The notes under the pieces are model-generated. The model was not told the origin of the DNA. It was given only the letters and a program-made list of their open reading frames with translations, and did no database searches. The translations under genes and the position numbers were made by a program. Positions 1 to 10,435 of a DNA stretch of 57,523 nucleotides are shown here, piece by piece; the stretch's first letter is position 1; each line of letters starts with the position of its first letter. This stretch comes from Candidatus Dietzia intestinipullorum (GTDB taxonomy: Bacteria; Actinomycetota; Actinomycetes; Mycobacteriales; Mycobacteriaceae), in NCBI GenBank assembly GCA_019119635.1, contig DWWP01000024.1, forward strand, positions 1 through 57,523, written 5' to 3'.

Positions 1-66
1 GGACTCGCCGACGCCGTAGGCGCGTTTGTGGGCGTCGATGAGCTCGACCAGGCGAGGGGTCTCCAT
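1..66 (-). CDS. 5' end of an HTH-type regulator-like protein (partial)
   Basis: The first 22 codons are visible; the rest lies left of the window. They read METPRLVELIDAHKR followed by AYGVGES, the amphipathic first-helix style of short XRE/Cro-like DNA-binding proteins. The family call rests only on that and on an inverted repeat about 45-65 bp upstream, placed as an operator would be. A TTGACG hexamer lies upstream on the same strand and could be a -35 element. No further domain can be judged. Confidence 0.5.
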   Translation of the reverse strand, partial: METPRLVELIDAHKRAYGVGES

Positions 67-109
67 GCTCTGAGTGTCCGCGTGCGCCACGGGTACCGTC
101 AAGGGGTAG

Positions 110-132
110 TTAACCGTTCCGGCAAGGGTTAA
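110..132. promoter_or_regulatory. Inverted repeat TTAACC-N11-GGTTAA (possible operator)
   Basis: TTAACC at 110-115 and GGTTAA at 127-132 are perfect inverted arms separated by 11 bp. The repeat lies upstream of the minus-strand gene ending the left edge and at the boundary of a lower-GC region. The AT-rich arms stand out in this GC-rich sequence. An operator for the adjacent HTH-type gene is the simplest reading, but it is inference. Confidence 0.4.
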
Positions 133-670
133 TGATCACGTGCCGGGTTTCGAGGTGTCGAGTTCCAAGCGCGGGCGGGGTCCAGGATGCTACGGCGCGC
201 CCAGTTCACCTACGCCAGCCCTGGGAGAAGGTCTGGCTGCGCGTTCCGAGCCATCGCCTAGCGCTTCGCGGAATGCGCGAAAGAGTCGCAGGAAATGCGA
301 ATCCCGACGAACGATCGCAGGTAAGAGCAGTAGTCACCATGCCGTCAGTGGCCTGAGTTCGACATCCAATATGCGGTGGATCAACGACTCGATGTCCTCC
401 TATTCGCAGGTCACGTGCGGCCCGAACTCGAACGAGTTGCGGGCAACTCGGGGAGTGTCGAGTTCGCGAGATGGACAACTCGGCACCGTTTGGTGGAAGC
501 TCTGCGTATCAGCTCCGTGCGTATCCGCGCCTTCCCGCTGGAAGCCGACGGAGAACCCCGCCGCCATACAGGCTGCGCGACAATTGCTGGTCGGACCATC
601 CGTACTGCATCAGCTAGAAGCGCCAGCTGATGGCGCCGCAGTCGGCACGGTTTGAACTACGTCGTCCTGG
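133..670. other. Lower-GC stretch without a convincing gene
   Basis: Base composition is visibly less GC-rich than the rest of the window, and open frames on either strand are short with no recognisable family. One plus-strand frame at about 376-630, starting GTG, reads like ordinary protein for about 50 codons and then degrades; it could be the remnant of a decayed gene. I see no RNA gene, transposase or clear terminator here. Confidence 0.4.
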
Positions 671-949
671 TCAGAGTGATCCAGCTGCATTGGAAACCAC
701 CGAAAAGACCGTCTCATCTAATGAATCAATGATGCAACTGACGAGTCTGTCCGGTAGTCCGCGCAGGTCAACGACATGCCGAGGATCGCTTTCCGGGCCG
801 CCTAGAGGCACGACGTCCGGGTCGAGACACCTCCATGCGCCATCCTGGGTTGGGTTATTACGCAGGTCGGGGAGGGTCTCGAATCCGCGCACGAGTGGAG
901 GGTTCAAGGTCCGGGGATGGTTCATCTGATGCAATACGCAGACATCCAC
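671..949 (-). CDS. Small hypothetical protein (weak call)
   Basis: A 92-codon frame starts at ATG and encodes a protein with normal residue balance, ending in a hydrophobic stretch around LPDRLVSCIIDSLDE. I do not recognise a family. Support is the start position 3 nt downstream of an AT-rich palindrome that could hold a promoter, and composition unlike the frameshift shadows nearby. Against it are the less GC-rich codon use compared with neighbours, the lack of a clear ribosome binding site and the lack of a domain. If real, it is probably an acquired or lineage-restricted gene. Confidence 0.3.
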   Translation of the reverse strand: MDVCVLHQMNHPRTLNPPLVRGFETLPDLRNNPTQDGAWRCLDPDVVPLGGPESDPRHVVDLRGLPDRLVSCIIDSLDETVFSVVSNAAGSL

Positions 950-951
950 TT

Positions 952-962
952 TACATAATGTA
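952..962. promoter_or_regulatory. AT-rich near-palindrome upstream of the small ORF
   Basis: TACATAATGTA is a near-perfect 11-bp palindrome directly upstream of the ATG at 949 on the minus strand. Read on minus it supplies TACATT and TATGTA hexamers resembling -10 elements. It may be a promoter, an operator, or both. No matching second copy was seen nearby. Confidence 0.3.
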
Positions 963-974
963 GATTATCGGCAC

Positions 975-1271
975 TGTGGAACGGACTGCGCTCGGGCGAT
1001 TGCGGCGCGGCGACCCGGCGGCCGCCTGTATGGCCGGTCGTCCGGCTCCGCCGGTGGGCGCTCTGCGTGGCCCGGACCCGGATGGGTCGCACGCCCGCCG
1101 GGTGCGCTGTCGGCCGGCCCGGCCGTGCGGGTGCGCCCCGGGCGTCAGTGGGCGCCGAGTCGAGATGCCCCGCGGTGCACTGTGGCTGCCGGTTCCCCGC
1201 CTCCACCTCCGGGCGGCCATTGAACGTCACAGTGACGATATGAAGGGGTGTCCCCGGGTCGGGCCTGTACG
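975..1271. other. Intergenic region, no gene seen
   Basis: This GC-rich stretch lies downstream of the thioesterase on minus. Open frames on both strands are arginine/proline/glycine-rich and look like out-of-frame composition rather than protein. No RNA gene or terminator with a U-run is evident. Confidence 0.4.
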
Positions 1272-1682
1272 TCAGGCGCCTTCCGGTCTGGGGGTGTTCT
1301 GCAGCCGGAGTTGCCCGCGAGCGAGGACCTTTCCGGAGTCCTGCTGGCTGATCACGACGTCCCAGAGTTGTTGGCTGCGCCCCTGGAACAATGCCTCCGC
1401 GATCACGTCCACGCGGCCACCGGTCGAGGCCCTGAGGAAATCCGTGCCGTTGTGCACGCCCACGGCGATCTGGTCCCGGCCCGAGACGGCGTGCTCGGCC
1501 CCTGCGCCACCGGCGCTCTCGACCAGGCTCGCGTAGACACCGCCGTGCACCGTGCCCCATGCCGTGTGGTGTTGCTCACCGAGGTCGGCGTGCCCCCGTA
1601 GCGACGTGGCCGAGACCTCGTCGATGACGAGCCCGGTCGTTGCCACGAAGCTGGTCGCCGGTCTCGGATCGGGTTCTGCCAC
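1272..1682 (-). CDS. PaaI-family hotdog-fold thioesterase
   Basis: The 136-residue protein has the size and core of the PaaI/YbgC-type hotdog thioesterases that hydrolyse acyl- or aryl-CoA. The family motif is visible as WGTVHGGVYASLVESAG around residues 42-58, where HGG begins the central helix and the acidic residue that follows is the usual catalytic position. The start is GTG with GGGAG 8 nt upstream. It lies downstream of the ABC-F gene on the same strand but is separated from it by a strong hairpin, so it is probably its own unit. The substrate cannot be inferred. Confidence 0.85.
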   Translation of the reverse strand: MAEPDPRPATSFVATTGLVIDEVSATSLRGHADLGEQHHTAWGTVHGGVYASLVESAGGAGAEHAVSGRDQIAVGVHNGTDFLRASTGGRVDVIAEALFQGRSQQLWDVVISQQDSGKVLARGQLRLQNTPRPEGA

Positions 1683-1716
1683 GTCTCTGCTCCCTCGTCT
1701 CGTGTCGGCGTCGGAA

Positions 1717-1747
1717 CCGGTGGTCCGATGTGCTGTCGGACCACCGG
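1717..1747 (-). terminator. Perfect 12-bp stem hairpin between ABC-F and thioesterase genes
   Basis: CCGGTGGTCCGA at 1717-1728 pairs perfectly with 1736-1747 around a 7-nt loop. It lies 53 bp after the ABC-F stop codon and 35 bp before the thioesterase start. No U-tract follows, which is common for actinobacterial intrinsic terminators, so termination is likely but not proven. Confidence 0.6.
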
Positions 1748-1799
1748 CGCGACACCCGTAGAGGCCGCCCGTCGAAGACTGCGGTGACGGGCCGCGGCC

Positions 1800-3452
1800 T
1801 CAGTGCTCCCCGTTACTCCCCGAGCGTATCGGCAGGCGGGTCAGGTCGACCGTCGGCCAGCCGGCCAGGTCGCGAAGCAGTTGCCGATCGTGCGTGGACA
1901 CCACGACCGCACACGACGCCGACCCCAGGCCGTCGGTGAGTGCGTCCACCAGTGCGAACGACAGGTGGTTGGTGGGCTCGTCGAGGATCAGCAGGTCGGG
2001 CTGTTCGGCCAGGCACAGGGCCAGGTGCAGACGCCGCTGCTGCCCCTGTGACATGCGTCCGACCCTCGTTCCTGCGGCTCCGGAGGCGAGCAAGCCGGTC
2101 GTGGCCAGGCCGGGAGCGTGCCCGTTTCCCAGTCTGTCCACGTGCTCCCGGTAGATCTCGACGCCCGTCCGTCGACCGTCCCAGTCCGGGATCTCCTGCG
2201 ACAGAGTAGAGATCCGGATCCCCGGGTGACGATCTATCCGGCCGGAATCGGGCTCCAGCCCTCCCGCCATCAGCGCGAGTAGCGTCGACTTCCCCGAGCC
2301 GTTGGGTCCGGTGAGCAGGAGCCTGTCCCCGGTGTCGATCGTGACCGAGACCGGGGTCTGCAGACGACCGGCCACCGTGGGGTCGTGACAGACGAGCACC
2401 TGCCGACCGGCGGGCACGTCCCACTCCGGCCACCGGAACTGCGCGGGGGGCTCCGGGACGGTGACACGATGCCGCTCGAGTTCCTCGCTACGCCGGTTGA
2501 ACGCCTGGACGGTGCCGGCCGCGCGGGTGGCCCGCTCGTGTCGACCGTGCCCCTTCCCCGGGCGCCACGAATCCCGCAGCTTCCCGCGAGCGGCCTCTGC
2601 GGCCCGCGTGAGCCGCTCGTGCTCGAGTCGTTGATCGGCGTGCGCCTGCTCCCACCGGGCGCGGACGGCGCGACGCCCCTCGATCCATCCGTCGTAACCG
2701 TCGCCGTAGACCTGGGGTCGGCCGCTCTGACTGGGGTCGAGATCAATGAACTGGGTGGTCACGTCCCGCAGCAGTGCCCGGTCGTGGCTGGCCACCACCA
2801 GGCCACCGGGGTGCTGGCGCAGCTGCGTGGTGAGGAACTCGAGTCCGGAGGCATCGAGGTGGTTGGTGGGCTCGTCCAACAGCAACAGGTCGGGCCGGGC
2901 GCCGAGCACGCACGCGAGCCGCACCCGGTACCGCTGCCCCACCGAGAGCGTGGCCAGTGACCTGCTCCGGTCCGGGCAGGCCGCCAGCCCGGCGAGCGCG
3001 ATGTCCACGCGCCGGTCCGCGTCCCACGCGTCGAGCGTCGTCGCGCGATCGAGTGCGGCCGCGTAGTCGTCGTCGGCGCCCGGTCGTCCGTCGGCCAGGG
3101 CCTCGCCCGCCCGGTCCAACTCCCGCAACGCGCGGAGGCTGTCCGTTATCGCCACCGCGACGGCGTCCCCGACGGTCCTGGAGTCGGAGACGTCGAGGTC
3201 CTGTTCCACCGTCCCCACGGTGCCGAGACGCGTGACGGACCCCGAGTCCGGCGTCCTCGCCCCGGCCATGACATCCAGAAGGGTGGTCTTTCCGCGACCG
3301 TTCTCCCCCACCAGGGCCATCGCGGAGCCGGCGGCGAGCGTGAGGTCGACCCCGGTGAGGACGGGGCGGTCGCCGAGCGTCACGTGGACGTCGGACAGTC
3401 GGATATGAGCGCGGGATCCCGCGTGTAGATGATGATTCCGGGTGTCGTGCAC
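1800..3452 (-). CDS. ABC-F family ATPase (possible ribosome-protection protein)
   Basis: The 550-residue protein has two fused ABC domains and no membrane segments, the hallmark of ABC-F proteins that act in the ribosomal E site. Domain 1 has Walker [10 protein letters not shown] near residue 50, signature LSVGQ and Walker [13 protein letters not shown]. Domain 2 has GPNGSGKST, a variant signature MSQGQ and [12 protein letters not shown] charged linker with many Arg and Glu joins them, as in antibiotic-resistance and housekeeping members alike. The start is GTG with AGAGGG upstream. A short leader ORF and hairpin precede the gene on the same strand, as is typical of drug-inducible ABC-F resistance genes, so a ribosome-protection role is plausible. 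The drug class cannot be read from sequence. Confidence 0.88.
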
Positions 3453-3497
3453 AGTGCCCTCTTCGGCTCGTCATGGAGCCGGACGCACGCTGAATCG

Positions 3498-3523
3498 GCC
3501 GTCCGGCGAGTGCCGTGGACGGC
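3498..3523 (-). promoter_or_regulatory. Leader hairpin between uORF and ABC-F gene
   Basis: GCCGTCC and GGACGGC form a 7-bp stem with a 12-nt loop in the ABC-F leader. Just upstream on minus, at 3528-3538, CTTCCTCCTCT could pair with the gene's AGAGGG ribosome binding site with one wobble. Together with the leader ORF this resembles an attenuator or a switch that exposes the binding site when the ribosome stalls. Confidence 0.45.
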
Positions 3524-3561
3524 GTGCAGAGGAGGAAGATGAAGTGGCTACCCTGCCGCCG

Positions 3562-3606
3562 TCAGCGGAGGGTCCAGGGCTTCATGGTGATGGCACCGGA
3601 ATACAT
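3562..3606 (-). CDS. 14-residue leader peptide upstream of the ABC-F gene
   Basis: A short ORF encodes MYSGAITMKPWTLR and stops at TGA, 109 nt before the ABC-F start on the same strand. Its ATG lies 7 nt after a TAGTAT -10 hexamer that has TGGACA 18 nt upstream, so the mRNA would begin at or next to the ATG and be leaderless. A hairpin and an anti-ribosome-binding-site sequence follow. This arrangement is that of ribosome-stalling leaders controlling drug-resistance genes. I do not recognise the peptide from a known system, and translation is inferred. Confidence 0.5.
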   Translation of the reverse strand: MYSGAITMKPWTLR

Positions 3607-3613
3607 GGGCGGC

Positions 3614-3643
3614 ATACTACTTTAAGCGCCCGCCTAATGTCCA
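3614..3643 (-). promoter_or_regulatory. Predicted promoter of the ABC-F leader
   Basis: On the minus strand TGGACA (3638-3643) and TAGTAT (3614-3619) are 18 nt apart, close to the vegetative TTGACA/TANNNT consensus. The hexamer ends 7 nt before the leader ATG. The -35 overlaps the 3' end of the neighbouring PPOX gene. Confidence 0.55.
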
Positions 3644-4218
3644 CGGAGATCGTCGATCTCGCGCCGGTAGACGGCGGTGAGCTCGTCGATGTACTCGCGG
3701 TCCCACCGGGGCGTGATGTGCTTGCTGCAGTTCGCGTCCGACGCCACCACGTCCACGAGGATCGCGCGCTCCACGTGTCCCGTATACGTCTTCTCCCCCA
3801 TCGTGCGCAGGCGCTCGATCAGGGCCGGGTCCTGGTCCGGCTCCACCACCCGGGCGTGCCCGAACACCTTGAGACGTGTCCTGGTGGGATAGTCGACGAA
3901 GAACAGGCATGCGCGCCCGTCGTGGTCGAGGTTGCCCGTGGAGACGAATTGCCGGTTCCCCCGGAACTCGAGCCAGGCGAGCCGGGTGGAGGCGTGGACG
4001 TGGACGAAGCCCGCGGGCCCGCCGCGGTGCTGTACATACGGCCACCCCGTCTCGGTGACGGTGGAGAGGAAGAAGTGATCGGCGCGCCGGATCAGCGCGA
4101 CGTCCGTGGTCTCGAGTTCGAACTCGCCGGCCTCGGTGGGCCTGGTCACCCCGACGCTCTCCTGTCGGGCACGGACGGACGGACCGAACGCGATGTCCGT
4201 GTAGCGGTTGGCGGGCAT
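3634..4218 (-). CDS. Pyridoxamine 5'-phosphate oxidase family (split-barrel flavoprotein)
   Basis: The 194-residue protein belongs to the FMN-binding split-barrel group annotated as pyridoxamine 5'-phosphate oxidase-like. Family features are an N-terminal sensor-like region, then FFLSTVTETGWPYVQHRGG near residues 50-70 and LFFVDYPTRTRLKVFGHARV near 110-130. I chose the ATG at 4218 (MPANRYTDIAFG): a TAGGGT -10 hexamer lies 7 nt upstream, and longer frames run into the palindromes. It is divergent from the HTH/FUSC pair and shares their operator-like region, so it may be co-regulated. The substrate is unknown. Confidence 0.85.
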   Translation of the reverse strand: MPANRYTDIAFGPSVRARQESVGVTRPTEAGEFELETTDVALIRRADHFFLSTVTETGWPYVQHRGGPAGFVHVHASTRLAWLEFRGNRQFVSTGNLDHDGRACLFFVDYPTRTRLKVFGHARVVEPDQDPALIERLRTMGEKTYTGHVERAILVDVVASDANCSKHITPRWDREYIDELTAVYRREIDDLRGH

Positions 4219-4225
4219 GGCGTCG

Positions 4226-4231
4226 ACCCTA
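4226..4231 (-). promoter_or_regulatory. -10 element of the PPOX gene (leaderless)
   Basis: TAGGGT on minus ends 7 nt before the ATG at 4218. This spacing predicts that transcription starts at or within a base or two of the start codon. The nearer palindrome (4249-4264) would cover the -35 region. Confidence 0.5.
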
Positions 4232-4248
4232 ACCCGCCACCGGCACTC

Positions 4249-4264
4249 GTCAATCAAAGTTGAC
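4249..4264. promoter_or_regulatory. Operator-like palindrome 1, GTCAA-N6-TTGAC
   Basis: Perfect inverted arms GTCAA and TTGAC are separated by 6 bp. It is one of two copies with identical arms and spacing in the 66-bp divergent region between the PPOX and HTH genes. The position fits repression or activation of both promoters. Confidence 0.6.
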
Positions 4265-4268
4265 GGAC

Positions 4269-4274
4269 TAGCCT
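4269..4274 (+). promoter_or_regulatory. -10 element of the HTH gene
   Basis: TAGCCT ends 10 nt before the ATG at 4285, so the transcript would start at or near the start codon. The hexamer lies between the two palindromes. Confidence 0.4.
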
Positions 4275-4276
4275 GG

Positions 4277-4292
4277 GTCAACGTATGTTGAC
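4277..4292. promoter_or_regulatory. Operator-like palindrome 2, GTCAA-N6-TTGAC
   Basis: The second copy can be read as GTCAAC-GTAT-GTTGAC and overlaps the ATG of the HTH gene. Its centre is 28 bp from the centre of copy 1. A protein bound here would block the predicted transcription start. Confidence 0.6.
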
Positions 4293-4515
4293 GCCCGAGG
4301 TGACAGACGTGGAGACGACATTCGATTTGGGCGACGACGACTCGGTACCGGTCGCTCGGCTGGCCGCGATCGCCCGGGCCAGGGCAGCCCTCGCGCGGGA
4401 GGAGTCCGCTGCGGTCCGGCACGCCCGGATGCACGGGATGAGCTGGGCGGAGATCGGCCGTGTGTTGGGCGTGAGCAAACAGGCGCTACACAAACGTTTC
4501 GGAAAGGCGGGCTGA
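4285..4515 (+). CDS. Small helix-turn-helix protein
   Basis: The 76-residue protein ends in a clear HTH: MSWAEIGRVLGVSKQALHKR around residues 52-71, the sigma-region-4-like form in which the recognition helix begins at VSKQA. The N-terminal half is acidic and then alanine/arginine-rich, ARLAAIARARAALAREE, likely helical. It is too short for a ligand domain. Its TGA stop is followed without frame change by the FUSC coding region. It may regulate its own promoter through the twin palindromes that flank and overlap its start, but this is inferred from position only. Confidence 0.75.
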   Translation: MLTPEVTDVETTFDLGDDDSVPVARLAAIARARAALAREESAAVRHARMHGMSWAEIGRVLGVSKQALHKRFGKAG

Positions 4516-4617
4516 CCACTGGCATCCCTGCACCGGCAACTCGAACGACTCCGCCCGCTCGTCACCCTCGCGCCGAGCCCGCCCCGGCTGCGCCCCGCGG
4601 TCAAGGCGGCACTCACC

Positions 4618-6297
4618 GTGTTGCTGTGTCTGGGGGCGGGGACGCTCGCCGGGCGCCAGGACCTGGGGCTGCTGTGCGTCACCGGCACGTTCGCCGTCCT
4701 GTACGCGCCCGCGGCGCCGATCCGACGACGGTTCGCCACAGTGCTGGGGGTGGGGCTCGCGTTGATCGTCTCCACGGCGCTCGGTGCCTTCACCGCCGGC
4801 TCGACACCGGCCTTCGCCGTCACCGCGGTCCTGCTGGCGATGACCACCGCCGGGGTCTGCCTGGCGCTGCGCGTCGGCCCTCCGGGATCGTATTTCCTCG
4901 TGCTGTGCGCGGGGATCGCGCACTTCCTGGCCGGCGCCCACGGGACGGCTCCCGCGACGATCGCCGGGATGACGGCCGTGGGTGCCGCGGTGGCGTTGAC
5001 GGTCACCATGGCGGAAATGCTCCCCGACCCCAGGCGGCCCGAACGAAGGGCCGTCGACGCCGCGGTCCGCGCGGTCCGCGACTACGCCGACTCGACGCCG
5101 GGCCCGGACAGTCGCCCGCTCCACCGCGCCGCCGCACACGCTCTCGCCGCCGCCGAGGAGGCGATGGTCGAAGGGTACTGGCGGCCGCACCCCGCCCTCA
5201 CCGACCGACTCACCACCGCCCGACGCGACTACGACCGCCGGGCCCGTCGGGCCACCGAGTATTTCCTGCCGGCCGAGGACCTGGCCTGGGACCCCCACAA
5301 CCCCGACGCGGGCCGCTGGCTCGACGAATCCGAGGAGCCGGCGGGGGTCGACATGCCCTCGGCGCCCGCCGCCGAACGAGCGGGCCGGGCCATCGCGGCC
5401 GACGAGCGGCGCCACGTCGCGTCGCTGCGCAGGCGGCTGGCGGACGGCCTGCGCTATCCCGGCGAGCCGTGGTCGGTGGCCCTCTCTGTGGGGGTGGCGA
5501 CCACGGCGTCGATCCTGCTCGTGCTGGTCGTGCTGGGCACCGACCAGACGCACCTGTACTGGGTCATCGCCTTCTCCGCACTCGTTCTCCACCAGGGCGG
5601 CCCGCGGGCGGCGCGCACCTATCGGGCGGTCCACCGGATGATCGGGACCGTCGCGGGCCTCGGGGTGTTCCTCGCCGTCTCGTACCTCCAGCCGACCGGC
5701 TGGTGGATCGTCGCCCTGATCGTCGTCCTCCAGTTCACCATCGAACTCCTGGTGACCCGGAACTACGGTCTCGCGGTCACGCTCATCACGCCGCTCGCCC
5801 TCACCGTGGCCACCGGCGGGCGGTACGCCGACGACCCGTGGGCGCTCGTCACGGAACGGCTGCTCGACACCGTCATCGGGGTGCTGGTGGCGCTGGTCGT
5901 CCTGTGGGTCGTCGGGCGCCGGGCACATCACCGAGCGGTCCGCGGCGACACCAGGCGGGTGTTGCGGGAGCTCGCCGAGTACGCGGGCGGGCACGAGCAG
6001 TCGCCCACCGAACCGACGCTGGCCTCTGCCCTGCGCGATCTCCACACCAGTACCGCCCTGCTGTCGGCGGACGGACACCGGGACTCCCCCGAGGTCCGGA
6101 CCGCCGAGGCACTCATCCATGCAGGCTTCCTGGGGCTCGGAGCCGACGACCGACGCACTGTGGCGCGAGGGGCGTCCCGGTGGGCAGAGCTCGCGGACGC
6201 CGACCTGCCCTCCGGACTGCGGCCGGTCGGCGAGGGCCACCCCGTCGACGAGAGGATCCGCGAGCAGTGCGAGCGGATGGGGGCGACGCCGGACTGA
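4618..6297 (+). CDS. FUSC-family membrane protein (aromatic acid exporter-like)
   Basis: The protein has two hydrophobic blocks of about five to six membrane segments each, one at the N terminus and one starting near TTASILLVLVVLG, with a large polar cytoplasmic region between and after them. This is the fusaric-acid-resistance/YccS/AaeB layout, usually linked to efflux of aromatic acids or similar small molecules. The annotated GTG start is conventional but has no ribosome binding site and cuts into segment 1. The same frame is open upstream to the TGA of the HTH gene and reads LRPAVKAAL just before, which looks like real FUSC sequence. True translation may start at CTG 4519 or follow readthrough of that TGA. 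Confidence 0.8.
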   Translation: MLLCLGAGTLAGRQDLGLLCVTGTFAVLYAPAAPIRRRFATVLGVGLALIVSTALGAFTAGSTPAFAVTAVLLAMTTAGVCLALRVGPPGSYFLVLCAGIAHFLAGAHGTAPATIAGMTAVGAAVALTVTMAEMLPDPRRPERRAVDAAVRAVRDYADSTPGPDSRPLHRAAAHALAAAEEAMVEGYWRPHPALTDRLTTARRDYDRRARRATEYFLPAEDLAWDPHNPDAGRWLDESEEPAGVDMPSAPAAERAGRAIAADERRHVASLRRRLADGLRYPGEPWSVALSVGVATTASILLVLVVLGTDQTHLYWVIAFSALVLHQGGPRAARTYRAVHRMIGTVAGLGVFLAVSYLQPTGWWIVALIVVLQFTIELLVTRNYGLAVTLITPLALTVATGGRYADDPWALVTERLLDTVIGVLVALVVLWVVGRRAHHRAVRGDTRRVLRELAEYAGGHEQSPTEPTLASALRDLHTSTALLSADGHRDSPEVRTAEALIHAGFLGLGADDRRTVARGASRWAELADADLPSGLRPVGEGHPVDERIREQCERMGATPD

Positions 6298-6313
6298 GCC
6301 ACCGCCCCGGTCG

Positions 6314-8659
<2,346 letters not shown>

Positions 8660-8713
8660 GGGCTGCTCCCTGGTCTGCTGGTCCACGGCAACACTAGGCG
8701 GTCGCCGGCCCCG

Positions 8714-10435
8714 CTACCCGCGATCCTGCTGCTCCATGGCGGTGGCGTGCAGATCGGCGAATCGCTCGGCCTCGTCGTCGTCCCATCCTTCCCGCCCCGT
8801 CGCGGCGGCCCACCCGTCGAGGATCTGGGTGTCGTACAGGTGCCCGAAGCCCTGGGAGCCACCGACGGCGTTGCCGAGATCCGTGGTGACCTGGAAGAAC
8901 GTGAGTACGGGCATGTACATCATGCCGGGGTGTCGGCCCTTGCCCGGCGGCTCGGACAGCCACGCGGGACGGTTGAACAGCAGGTCCGAGTCCCACCAGA
9001 CCACGGGGTCGGTGGCGTGCTGCACGTAGAGGATGTGGGGAGGGATCCACGGGTCGCCCGGGCCGCCGGCCCCCCGCAACGTCGCGGGGTCCTCGGCGAA
9101 GCGCACGAGGAGGCCGTCGGCGTAGACGGGATCGGTGACGGTGCTGCCCGGGTCCCGGCGCTCGACCAGCGCCCGCCAGATCCGGTTGGAGTTGGGCGGG
9201 CCCACCCACAGCACGCCGTCCACGGTCTGCCGGATGTCCCGGATCCCGGAGAACGCCGCCTCGCCGGCCTGCGTGCTCAGGCTCTCGCCGTAGACGTAGA
9301 GGTCGGGCCGTGGCAGCTCCGGCGGGAGCGAGTCGCGCCATGCCACCACGGCGTCGATGAGGGCCTTGCCCGCCGCCTCCGCCTTCTCCCGGTCGGCGAG
9401 GAAGGAGATCCAGCTGGGCAGGAACGAGTACTGGGTGCCGACGATCGCGGTGTCGCCCGCGCCCATCAGCTCGATGGCCTGCGCGGCGTTGGGGTTGATC
9501 CACCCCGTCCCGGTGGTCGGCGCCACCACCACCTGCTCGCGCTCCCAGGCGCGCGTCCGGTCGAGCTCGTCCACCACCAACTGCGAGCGTTGCTCGTCGG
9601 TCTCCGCCGATTCGAGACCGGCGTAGGCGCGGATCGGTTCCTTCGCCCGGGCCCCCAGCAGTTCGGAGAGCTCCTCCCCGCCCAGGCCGCCGTCGACGAA
9701 GCGACGGCCCTGCATCCCCAGGTCGTCGAAGTCCACCAGGGAGCCGGGGCCGCCGGAGCGCTCGGCGTGGGACGGGCGGGCCACCCCGTCGACCGGCTCG
9801 CCGTTCTGCACACTGAAGATCAGGTTGGCGCCCTCGAAGAACAATCGCGGCACCACGCCCTCGGCGACGCCGATCAGGAGCGCGGCCACCACCACGACGC
9901 CGGCGATCTTGGACGTGTACTCCCCCAGCCCGAGTCGCCGTCGGGTGGCGCGTGCGATCAACCGGGTGCCGCGCCGGATCATGCGGCAGACGATGAGCAG
10001 ACCCAGGAAGACCGCGAGTGCGACCCACGGGATCCGCATATAGTCCGCCCACGTCGGCCGGGGCGCATGCACCAGGTCCGACACCTGGTCCTGCCACCGG
10101 ACGGCCGTCGCGGTGGCGGTGATGAGGTAGACCACCAGGATGTAGGGGGCGGCCATCCGCGACACGCGCAGGAGGCCGTCGCCGATCGAGGCCACCGTGC
10201 TGTTCAGCGCGATTCGGGGCGCGATGAAGCGTTTCCAGACCGTCCGCAGCAGGACGCCGATGCCGTATCCGAGCAGCATCGACACACCGGTGACGAGCCC
10301 CTGGTAGTACCAGGCGCGCGGGAGCAGCGACGGCATGAGCGAGACCCAGGCCGCCAGGGCGGCGACGACGAGTCCGGTGACCGACAGCAGCCAGCGCTCC
10401 CACCAGGTCTTCAGCGTGTCGAGTGCGGTGCTCAC
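8714..10435 (-). CDS. Membrane-anchored alpha/beta hydrolase (Abhydrolase_9 type)
   Basis: The first 200 residues of this 573-residue protein hold about five hydrophobic segments. The rest is a soluble hydrolase domain with the nucleophile elbow GESLST near residue 383 and conserved-looking blocks ending in DLGNAVGGSQGFGHLY. This matches the actinobacterial family of membrane alpha/beta hydrolases of unknown substrate. The GTG start overlaps the TGA of the upstream zinc-finger-like gene (GTGA), so the two are translationally coupled. The catalytic Ser is visible; Asp and His partners are not assigned. Confidence 0.85.
   Translation of the reverse strand: MSTALDTLKTWWERWLLSVTGLVVAALAAWVSLMPSLLPRAWYYQGLVTGVSMLLGYGIGVLLRTVWKRFIAPRIALNSTVASIGDGLLRVSRMAAPYILVVYLITATATAVRWQDQVSDLVHAPRPTWADYMRIPWVALAVFLGLLIVCRMIRRGTRLIARATRRRLGLGEYTSKIAGVVVVAALLIGVAEGVVPRLFFEGANLIFSVQNGEPVDGVARPSHAERSGGPGSLVDFDDLGMQGRRFVDGGLGGEELSELLGARAKEPIRAYAGLESAETDEQRSQLVVDELDRTRAWEREQVVVAPTTGTGWINPNAAQAIELMGAGDTAIVGTQYSFLPSWISFLADREKAEAAGKALIDAVVAWRDSLPPELPRPDLYVYGESLSTQAGEAAFSGIRDIRQTVDGVLWVGPPNSNRIWRALVERRDPGSTVTDPVYADGLLVRFAEDPATLRGAGGPGDPWIPPHILYVQHATDPVVWWDSDLLFNRPAWLSEPPGKGRHPGMMYMPVLTFFQVTTDLGNAVGGSQGFGHLYDTQILDGWAAATGREGWDDDEAERFADLHATAMEQQDRG

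Follow-up and report, generated by a model that had tools for sequence, protein, structure and literature searches.

A candidate macrolide-responsive, leaderless attenuator upstream of an ABC-F gene in Dietzia and of other resistance genes in Actinomycetota

On the minus strand of contig DWWP01000024.1 from Candidatus Dietzia intestinipullorum (assembly GCA_019119635.1, 2.95 Mb in 65 contigs), a gene for an ABC-F ATPase is preceded by a 14-codon open reading frame (ORF) that lies directly behind a promoter-like sequence. The whole contig, 57,523 nucleotides (nt), was analyzed and is referred to here as the window. We propose that this ORF probably encodes a leaderless leader peptide on which ribosomes would stall in the presence of a macrolide, and that the gene behind it is controlled by translational attenuation. 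Four features of the sequences carry this proposal: a conserved peptide, the position of a −10 hexamer, the position of a tripeptide motif, and a set of alternative RNA pairings. An earlier sequence-only reading had suggested a leaderless leader peptide and an RNA switch before the ABC-F gene, and the conserved peptide, the −10 spacing and the alternative pairings back that suggestion.

Conservation of the leader among ABC-F homologues

Homologues of the ABC-F protein were collected from the 251 genomes of the family, where 81 matched at 1e-60 and the best 30 matches were fetched, and from GTDB contigs (57 loci). These 87 loci, which are the closest homologues and not a random sample, were reduced to 85 by removing a partial locus (L089) and a distant one from Pseudomonadales (L094). 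A related leader is present upstream of 55 of the 85, 53 of them found by a pattern (an ORF ending at a TGA/TAA-CGGCG junction) and two, L063 and L085, by a covariance model; the other 30 upstream regions gave no credible match to that model (best E 0.024, on the other strand and at another place). In a maximum-likelihood tree of 84 of the proteins (quick method; L091 was too short to include), a branch with a Shimodaira–Hasegawa-like approximate likelihood ratio test (SH-aLRT) value of 100 separates the 54 carriers from the remaining 30 proteins, none of which has the element. The peptides fall into types, MYxGxxxMKPW[ST]xR in Dietzia, other genera of the same family and Micromonospora, MARGIWSQK[VI]RSAR in Streptomyces, Micromonospora and Nonomuraea, and further ones such as MYRGIASMKLRSAR in Micrococcus, and the stop context TGA-CGGCGG is almost invariant among 48 aligned elements. 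Loss of the 14 codons in relatives had been named beforehand as a refuting result; the peptide is kept, so the leader survived this test, and from these comparisons we place very high confidence in its conservation. Within the window's genus the ABC-F element is patchy, with strong model matches in 8 of 22 genomes; in two further genomes (G218 and G248) the element precedes an erm-like gene. One genome of this genus has an ABC-F sequence identical to that of Dietzia aerolata.

Five elements from a scan of the class (L096–L099 and L101) were added for the analyses below, giving 58 elements, or 56 without identical ones; a 54-element set, from which L014, L038, L041 and L090 were dropped, serves the accessibility, class and motif counts. 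L063 and L085 carry the element yet stay outside the −10, accessibility, peptide-similarity and motif counts. Among the KPW-type leaders (n = 18), peptide similarity in frame 0 is 0.535, compared to 0.349 and 0.402 in the other frames and to a mean of 0.362 and a maximum of 0.506 in 200 joint column permutations. Leaders of the other types (n = 8) give 0.29 in frame 0 against a permutation maximum of 0.229 (200 permutations). In the MARGIWSQK leaders (n = 19; e.g., L044, L051 and L053), codons 2–9 are base-identical except for one GGC in place of GGT, and this identity covers synonymous sites, including GCA and CGA codons that are unexpected in high-GC genomes; an RNA-level role of the 5′ end in leaders of this type is possible.

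Evidence for a leaderless start

The promoter described by the sequence-only reading, TGGACA-N18-TAGTAT ending 7 nt (GCCGCCC) before the ATG of the 14-codon ORF, was located on the minus strand with its ATG at 3606, and it is one of three promoter-like sites within positions 1–10000, where shuffles average 0.4. Of 56 elements, 53 have a TANNNT hexamer 6–7 nt upstream of the leader start (7 nt in 46, 6 nt in 7), against a background mean of 0.09/56 over 56 offsets outside 5–8; the start codons of L016, L096–L099 and L101 were chosen with the −10 in view, and excluding those six leaves 47/50. L063 and L085 also have TANNNT 7 nt before the leader start, and L057, one of the three exceptions, would fit if the immediately preceding in-frame ATG were the start. 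The covariance model reaches only 6 nt upstream of the leader start, which makes the −10 a feature independent of it. At the −35 position, at least four of six bases match in 19 of 51 TANNNT-bearing elements, as compared to 8.4% of shuffles, and a stretch resembling a Shine–Dalgarno sequence (SD) precedes the leader in only 4 of 56 elements. This spacing is consistent with Streptomyces lividans, in which TAnnnT averages 6.3 nt before mapped starts (PMC8079986), and we have high confidence in the predicted leaderless start of the leader mRNA. A leaderless stalling peptide had been called unusual; leaderless leader peptides as such are not unusual among actinobacteria, since leaderless amino-acid attenuator peptides are known in S. 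lividans (PMC8079986).

A candidate arrest motif at a constant distance from the stop codon

In each of the 54 leaders, whose lengths run from 9 to 20 codons, a [KR]-x-[RW] motif is separated from the stop by exactly three codons (KPW in 18, KVR in 17, RLR in 8 and others in 11), and at the six offsets next upstream the motif occurs in 0/54 (offsets nearer the stop are outside this count). Inverse toeprinting with erythromycin identified the drug-dependent arrest motifs +X(+), XP(X), +X(W) and XP(W), with MAXP(W) also assayed in vivo (PMC6238534), and erythromycin arrest motifs are likewise described in PMC13410324. In the RYR leader of Bacillus subtilis the middle residue occupies the P site (PMC6851288). 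Given these published motifs and this P-site placement, the KPW of the window leader can be taken for a macrolide arrest motif that places Pro10 in the P site; by analogy, we infer that it would stall Dietzia ribosomes. Since the window leader has the KPW motif, macrolides are the expected drug class, an assignment as inducing signal in which we have fair confidence.

Alternative RNA pairings between the leader and the ABC-F gene

Across 48 aligned elements, RNAalifold pairs segment B, the stop codon and the bases following it, with segment C (CGCCGUC), and segment D with segment E (Table 1). The mutually exclusive pairings B:C, C:D, D:E and E:F are conserved in the alignment and span the region between the leader stop codon and the SD of the ABC-F gene, linking the two. 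For C:D and E:F, 96.6% of 766 cells are paired and there is hardly any variation. The combination of D:E with a pairing between a CU-rich segment and the SD has nine base pairs in which both partners change, and none of 500 shuffles attains its covariation score; this statistic ignores relatedness, and the register of the structure varies between clades. The 7-bp hairpin that the sequence-only reading had placed between leader and gene is present in the window, formed by GCCGTCC (3523–3517) with GGACGGC (3504–3498), and a second one, CGGCTC/GAGCCG (3481–3464), likewise lies 5′ of the ABC-F SD on the minus strand. The 164 nt counted from the window leader start fold with a z of −2.31 (2/200 shuffles equally good). 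No Rfam family was found for the window at the gathering score, nor for positions 3400–3700 with six relatives at relaxed thresholds.

The CU-rich segment had been thought able to pair with the ABC-F SD, a claim that stands as a group trend and is weak for the window itself. The pairing beats the shuffled mean in 18 of 23 KPW/KLW-type elements, 10 of 19 of the MARGIWSQK type and 8 of 12 of other types; in the window it is weak, with 32/100 shuffles of the CU segment pairing equally well, which counts against our proposal. This pairing was set aside as the main switch, the shuffles giving a group trend in KPW-type leaders alone. The better-supported candidate for the switching helix, judged from the alignment, is the one between the stop-codon region and CGCCGUC, and our confidence in the identity of the exact partner hiding the ABC-F SD is low.

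Predicted SD accessibility and ribosome position

The effect of a ribosome on these pairings was modeled by masking the 5′ part of the element stepwise and computing the opening of the SD in the 54 elements. Mean accessibility is 0.21 without masking and 0.35 when the first free base is at −3 or 0 relative to the stop, while from +6 to +24 it is 0.21–0.24. With the first free base at 0, accessibility rises by more than 0.1 in 32 of 54 elements and falls in 0/54, and the peak at the stop edge is present in each of the three leader classes. In the window, accessibility goes from 0.43 to 0.80 at this peak and returns to 0.34 at +3. Codon 9 or 10 would occupy the P site of a ribosome whose front edge is at the stop-edge position, which fits a stall at codons 9–10. 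On sequestration of the SD without drug the picture is mixed, as the unstalled accessibility is 0.21 on average but 0.43 in the window, and the anti-SD partner is weak. Overall, we have good confidence in stall-driven control of the ABC-F gene.

The same element before other genes

The covariance model matched 30 of 394 genomes of the class and 29 of 251 genomes of the family, the window's own included. The class scan yielded 25 matches away from ABC-F genes, of which 24 were located and 23 examined, and 17 of these have TANNNT 6–7 nt before an in-frame start. No such hexamer was found before a suitable start in L100, L113, L115 and L116. L122 and L123, which lack a −10, and L120, which lacks a leader-like context, were taken as false positives. 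From the family scan, 11 regions were fetched out of 20 further matches.

Ten downstream proteins were compared to NCBIfam families. Those in L100, L103, L104, L107 and L117 are Erm methyltransferases above the broad Erm cut-off; those in L102, L105 and L119 are closest to LmrA, below its cut-off; that in L124 is DHA2-efflux-like, below the cut-off; and that in L112 is a Lnu(F)-like nucleotidyltransferase, also below the cut-off, behind the leader MCAIAVTDLRLS with the −10 TACCCT 7 nt before it. Other erm-like or MFS-like neighbors (e.g., L108, L109, L118, L134–L138, L140 and L142–L144) were named from their first residues only. Erm leaders of the TAG type have R-x-R one codon nearer the stop, as in MCCFACFTRIRRS. 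In L135 and L136, MLISGTAFLRLRTNR lies upstream of an erm gene; parts of 15 plasmid records, most of them Corynebacterium erm(X), match the L135 DNA at 90–100% identity, and in one of these records the peptide bears the annotation "erythromycin resistance leader peptide", so that one branch has already been recognized as such. The window element itself had no blastn match among 72,556 plasmid records.

LmrA-like or related MFS genes (L102, L105, L110, L114, L119 and L144) stand behind Ala/Ser-rich leaders such as MSASSAAACAAVTRALR; these Ala/Ser runs may point to another drug context. In L139 and L141, from two genomes of the window's family (G164 and G194), a diverged element has the leader MCSDLWSQKVRSAR, TACGGT 7 nt upstream of that leader, and the junction TGACGGCGGCGCC. 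It precedes a predicted secreted protein, which in L139 has no NCBIfam match at 1e-5, and we read it as an orphan or repurposed leader.

Taken together, we lean toward regarding the element as an old leaderless attenuator cassette of Actinomycetota, outside Rfam, whose arrest motif can be swapped and which has been put in front of four or more unrelated classes of ribosome-drug resistance gene (ABC-F, Erm, LmrA-like or other MFS efflux, and one Lnu-type nucleotidyltransferase); within it, the window's ABC-F leader would use in nature a +X(W)/XP(W) motif known from random peptide libraries. As the −10-to-start spacing recurs before all four gene kinds, leaderless initiation would belong to the design of the cassette. 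If so, several actinobacterial resistance genes would be tied to one RNA switch, the window leader would show the XP(W)/+X(W) motif of macrolide arrest at work in nature, and the cassette would provide a clear instance of ribosomes stalled by a drug on leaderless mRNA. A drug class is also suggested for an ABC-F clade of unknown spectrum, and the covariance model could locate further inducible resistance genes.

Features of the window locus

The coordinates of the element and the gene behind it are collected in Table 1. From the end of the leader ORF to the GTG of the ABC-F gene there are 109 nt. The best-scoring NCBIfam model for the ABC-F protein is TlrC/CarA/OleB/SrmB (NF000171) at 338 bits, and with a curated cut-off of 800 the protein is not a member of that family. 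The gene upstream of the leader, which ends at the TAG at 3636–3634, resembles FMN-dependent PPOX-type flavoproteins (47.8 bits, cut-off 170). A 790-residue UvrA-like protein is encoded 2.9 kb upstream of the ABC-F start (6317–8686, minus strand); it scores 665.6 bits against a UvrA cut-off of 729.8, with a model that is longer (924 positions).

Table 1 Features of the leader element and the ABC-F gene in the window
Feature	Position	Strand	Remark
−35-like hexamer TGGACA	3638..3643	minus	overlaps the end of the upstream PPOX-like gene
−10 hexamer TAGTAT	3614..3619	minus	predicted transcript start at or next to A3606
Predicted leaderless leader ORF, MYSGAITMKPWTLR-stop, 14 codons	3562..3606	minus	ATG 3606, TGA 3564-3562
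Lys-Pro-Trp, codons 9-11, proposed macrolide arrest motif (+X(W), XP(W))	3574..3582	minus	Pro in P site, Trp in A site (proposed)
Segment A, codons 11-14	3565..3576	minus	able to pair with segment B around the stop codon
Segment B, GACGGCGG	3556..3563	minus	begins at the stop codon; partner A or C
CU-rich segment, candidate anti-SD	3524..3534	minus	weak for the window alone
Segment C, CGCCGTCC	3517..3524	minus	partner B or D
Segment D, GCCGGACGGC	3498..3507	minus	partner C or E
Segment E, ending in GTCCGGCTC	3476..3491	minus	partner D or F
Segment F, GAGCCG	3464..3469	minus	3′ hairpin arm adjoining the SD
ABC-F SD, AAGAGGG	3457..3463	minus
ABC-F ATPase, 550 residues	1800..3452	minus	GTG start (3452-3450)

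Proposed mechanism and alternatives

From these features we infer stalling, the drug class, the direction of the switch, translational as opposed to transcriptional control, and a resistance function, as follows. Transcription would begin at the leader AUG, so that the ribosome would initiate on the 5′ end without an SD. With no drug present, the 14 codons would be read through, A and B would pair around the stop codon, and the downstream segments would fold, partly hiding the ABC-F ribosome-binding site. If a macrolide-type drug occupied the exit tunnel, the ribosome would stall at Lys9-Pro10-(Trp11) and cover A, leaving B free; B:C and D:E would then form and the ABC-F SD would be exposed. 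The ABC-F protein made after the switch would protect ribosomes.

Besides the weak CU-rich pairing of the window, a number of results weigh against this proposal. The arrest motif was spotted only after the leaders had been inspected, and the evidence for stalling at KPW comes from Escherichia coli ribosomes, not those of Dietzia. When all 45 leaders are pooled, frame-0 similarity (0.225) falls within the null range (mean 0.128, maximum 0.241, 60 permutations), and leader variation is not concentrated at third codon positions. C:D and E:F are almost without covariation, with one double-change pair and a score reached by 25/500 shuffles. The stop-edge peak in accessibility is not unique, as accessibility climbs again past about +27 and is 0.35 at +39, where masking nears or removes segment C itself; shuffling the region after the stop gives a profile of 0.25–0.32 with a small bump left at the same place (0.25 to 0.31), and L011 and L043 have no clear peak. 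The changes are modest and come from related sequences, and automatic choice of the SD left a few doubtful picks (e.g., L010, L043 and L080). Placing codon n−4 in the P site with a 17-nt footprint raises accessibility in 25 of 58 elements and lowers it in 10 of 58. The window stays at 0.43 under this strict footprint and gains only with the edge about 2 nt further back, so the stall register given here is approximate. Finally, in 17 non-ABC-F leaders, two of whose SD picks look wrong, the stop-edge peak is weaker, with the mean going from 0.14 to 0.225 and the median from 0.17 to 0.18.

Several other explanations were weighed. Stalling at a stop codon is exemplified by TnaC and by the arrest of the MsrD leader. 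Here, a ribosome on the leader stop codon would cover both A and B, so that C:D and E:F form and the SD is free. The near-constant pairing of C:D and E:F and the almost invariant TGA-CGGCGG context would suit such a stall, but the conserved tripeptide ends three codons short of the stop, accessibility is low with the first free base from +6 to +24, and masking by a ribosome on the stop codon leaves the mean SD accessibility at its baseline (0.217 versus 0.215 free, n = 58). Because that masking gave no mean gain, we demoted stop-codon stalling to an alternative, and consider it quite improbable. To transcription attenuation, in which alternative hairpins would gate RNA polymerase as for lmrC, we likewise assign a low probability. 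It is used by LmrC and other ABC-F genes (PMC8546547, PMC12421871), whereas the leader contains no site resembling an intrinsic terminator, the only one within positions 1–10000 being at 9872, and the predicted effect lands on the SD. Rho-dependent or pausing effects on transcription would be compatible with this lack of a terminator.

That the element senses a signal other than a macrolide, be it a lincosamide, a streptogramin, tryptophan or lysine starvation or general translation stress, seems unlikely to us. In its favor, the element also precedes LmrA-like efflux and Lnu(F)-like genes, whose family names refer to lincosamides, and the window leader has a Trp codon; the motif, however, agrees with those published for erythromycin arrest, and amino-acid sensing is unlikely given that 31 of 54 leaders have Arg where the window leader has Trp. 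We give very little credence to an untranslated leader, in which the conserved stretch would be a ligand-binding riboswitch or a chance ORF. The near-invariant nucleotides of codons 2–9 in the MARGIWSQK type, synonymous sites included, would be expected from it, as would the missing third-position excess and the pooled frame-0 score. Within the KPW and other types, though, frame-0 similarity exceeds all 200 permutations, the distance from tripeptide to stop is kept in 54/54 leaders of differing length, and no Rfam family was found. Macrolide-dependent stalling within the leader, with control of translation, is the explanation we prefer.

Comparison with known systems

Drug-stalled attenuators are classic, and the erm(X) leader is already annotated. 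With macrolide-responsive translational attenuators of the ermC type the element shares a short leader ORF that is conserved as a peptide ahead of a resistance gene, and mutually exclusive pairings that connect this leader to the SD behind it. What we did not find in open-access print is the leaderless design apparently shared by ABC-F, erm, efflux and Lnu-like genes, or a natural KPW motif. We recognized no paper describing the element among the titles, abstract beginnings and passages surveyed in the open-access literature, older erm work in subscription journals being beyond reach; the peptide strings KPWSLR and ARGIWSQK had no match in open-access text, nor did the ermX leader peptide of Corynebacterium.

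Among leaders of ABC-F genes, that of MsrD is macrolide-responsive, as we propose for the window, but it is streptococcal and we saw no sequence relation to the window leader. The ARE5 attenuators (lmrC, tiaA, are5sc) are likewise actinobacterial and mediate induction by ribosome-bound drugs through upstream ORFs (uORFs); they differ in those uORFs (MLV, MVGDDDISG, lmrC uORF2) and, for lmrC, in being terminator-based (PMC8546547, PMC12421871), and the word "leaderless" is absent from the main texts of both papers. The TlrB (YxjB) leader, which also shows +X+ macrolide-dependent stalling, resembles leaders of the element in its basic-x-basic motif, with the middle residue in the P site and the second basic residue in the A site, and differs in having its own SD and a terminator (PMC6851288), while ErmDL shares macrolide-dependent stalling at an Arg-Leu-Arg, +X+ motif (PMC13410324). 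Both differ from the window element in RNA and peptide.

A short ORF opening the transcript, as proposed for the window, is found in the leaderless attenuators leuL, trpL and ilvL (PMC8079986) and in the mycobacterial polycysteine uORFs (PMC9031893); these carry codons of the regulated amino acid, whereas the window leader carries a putative antibiotic-arrest motif. The erm(X) leader (pAP2, WP_011152926.1; Corynebacterium/Trueperella plasmids), MLISGTAFLRLRSNR, has RLR and three codons before the stop, like the window design, and a −10 TATAAT lies 7–8 nt before the start. Its close relatives in one genus (g3) match the ABC-F covariance model over the full length at 44–51 bits, one of them (L138) with RPL in place of RLR. 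The erm(X) leader differs from the window leader in its target, a 23S rRNA methyltransferase, and in having a +X+ rather than a +X(W) motif.

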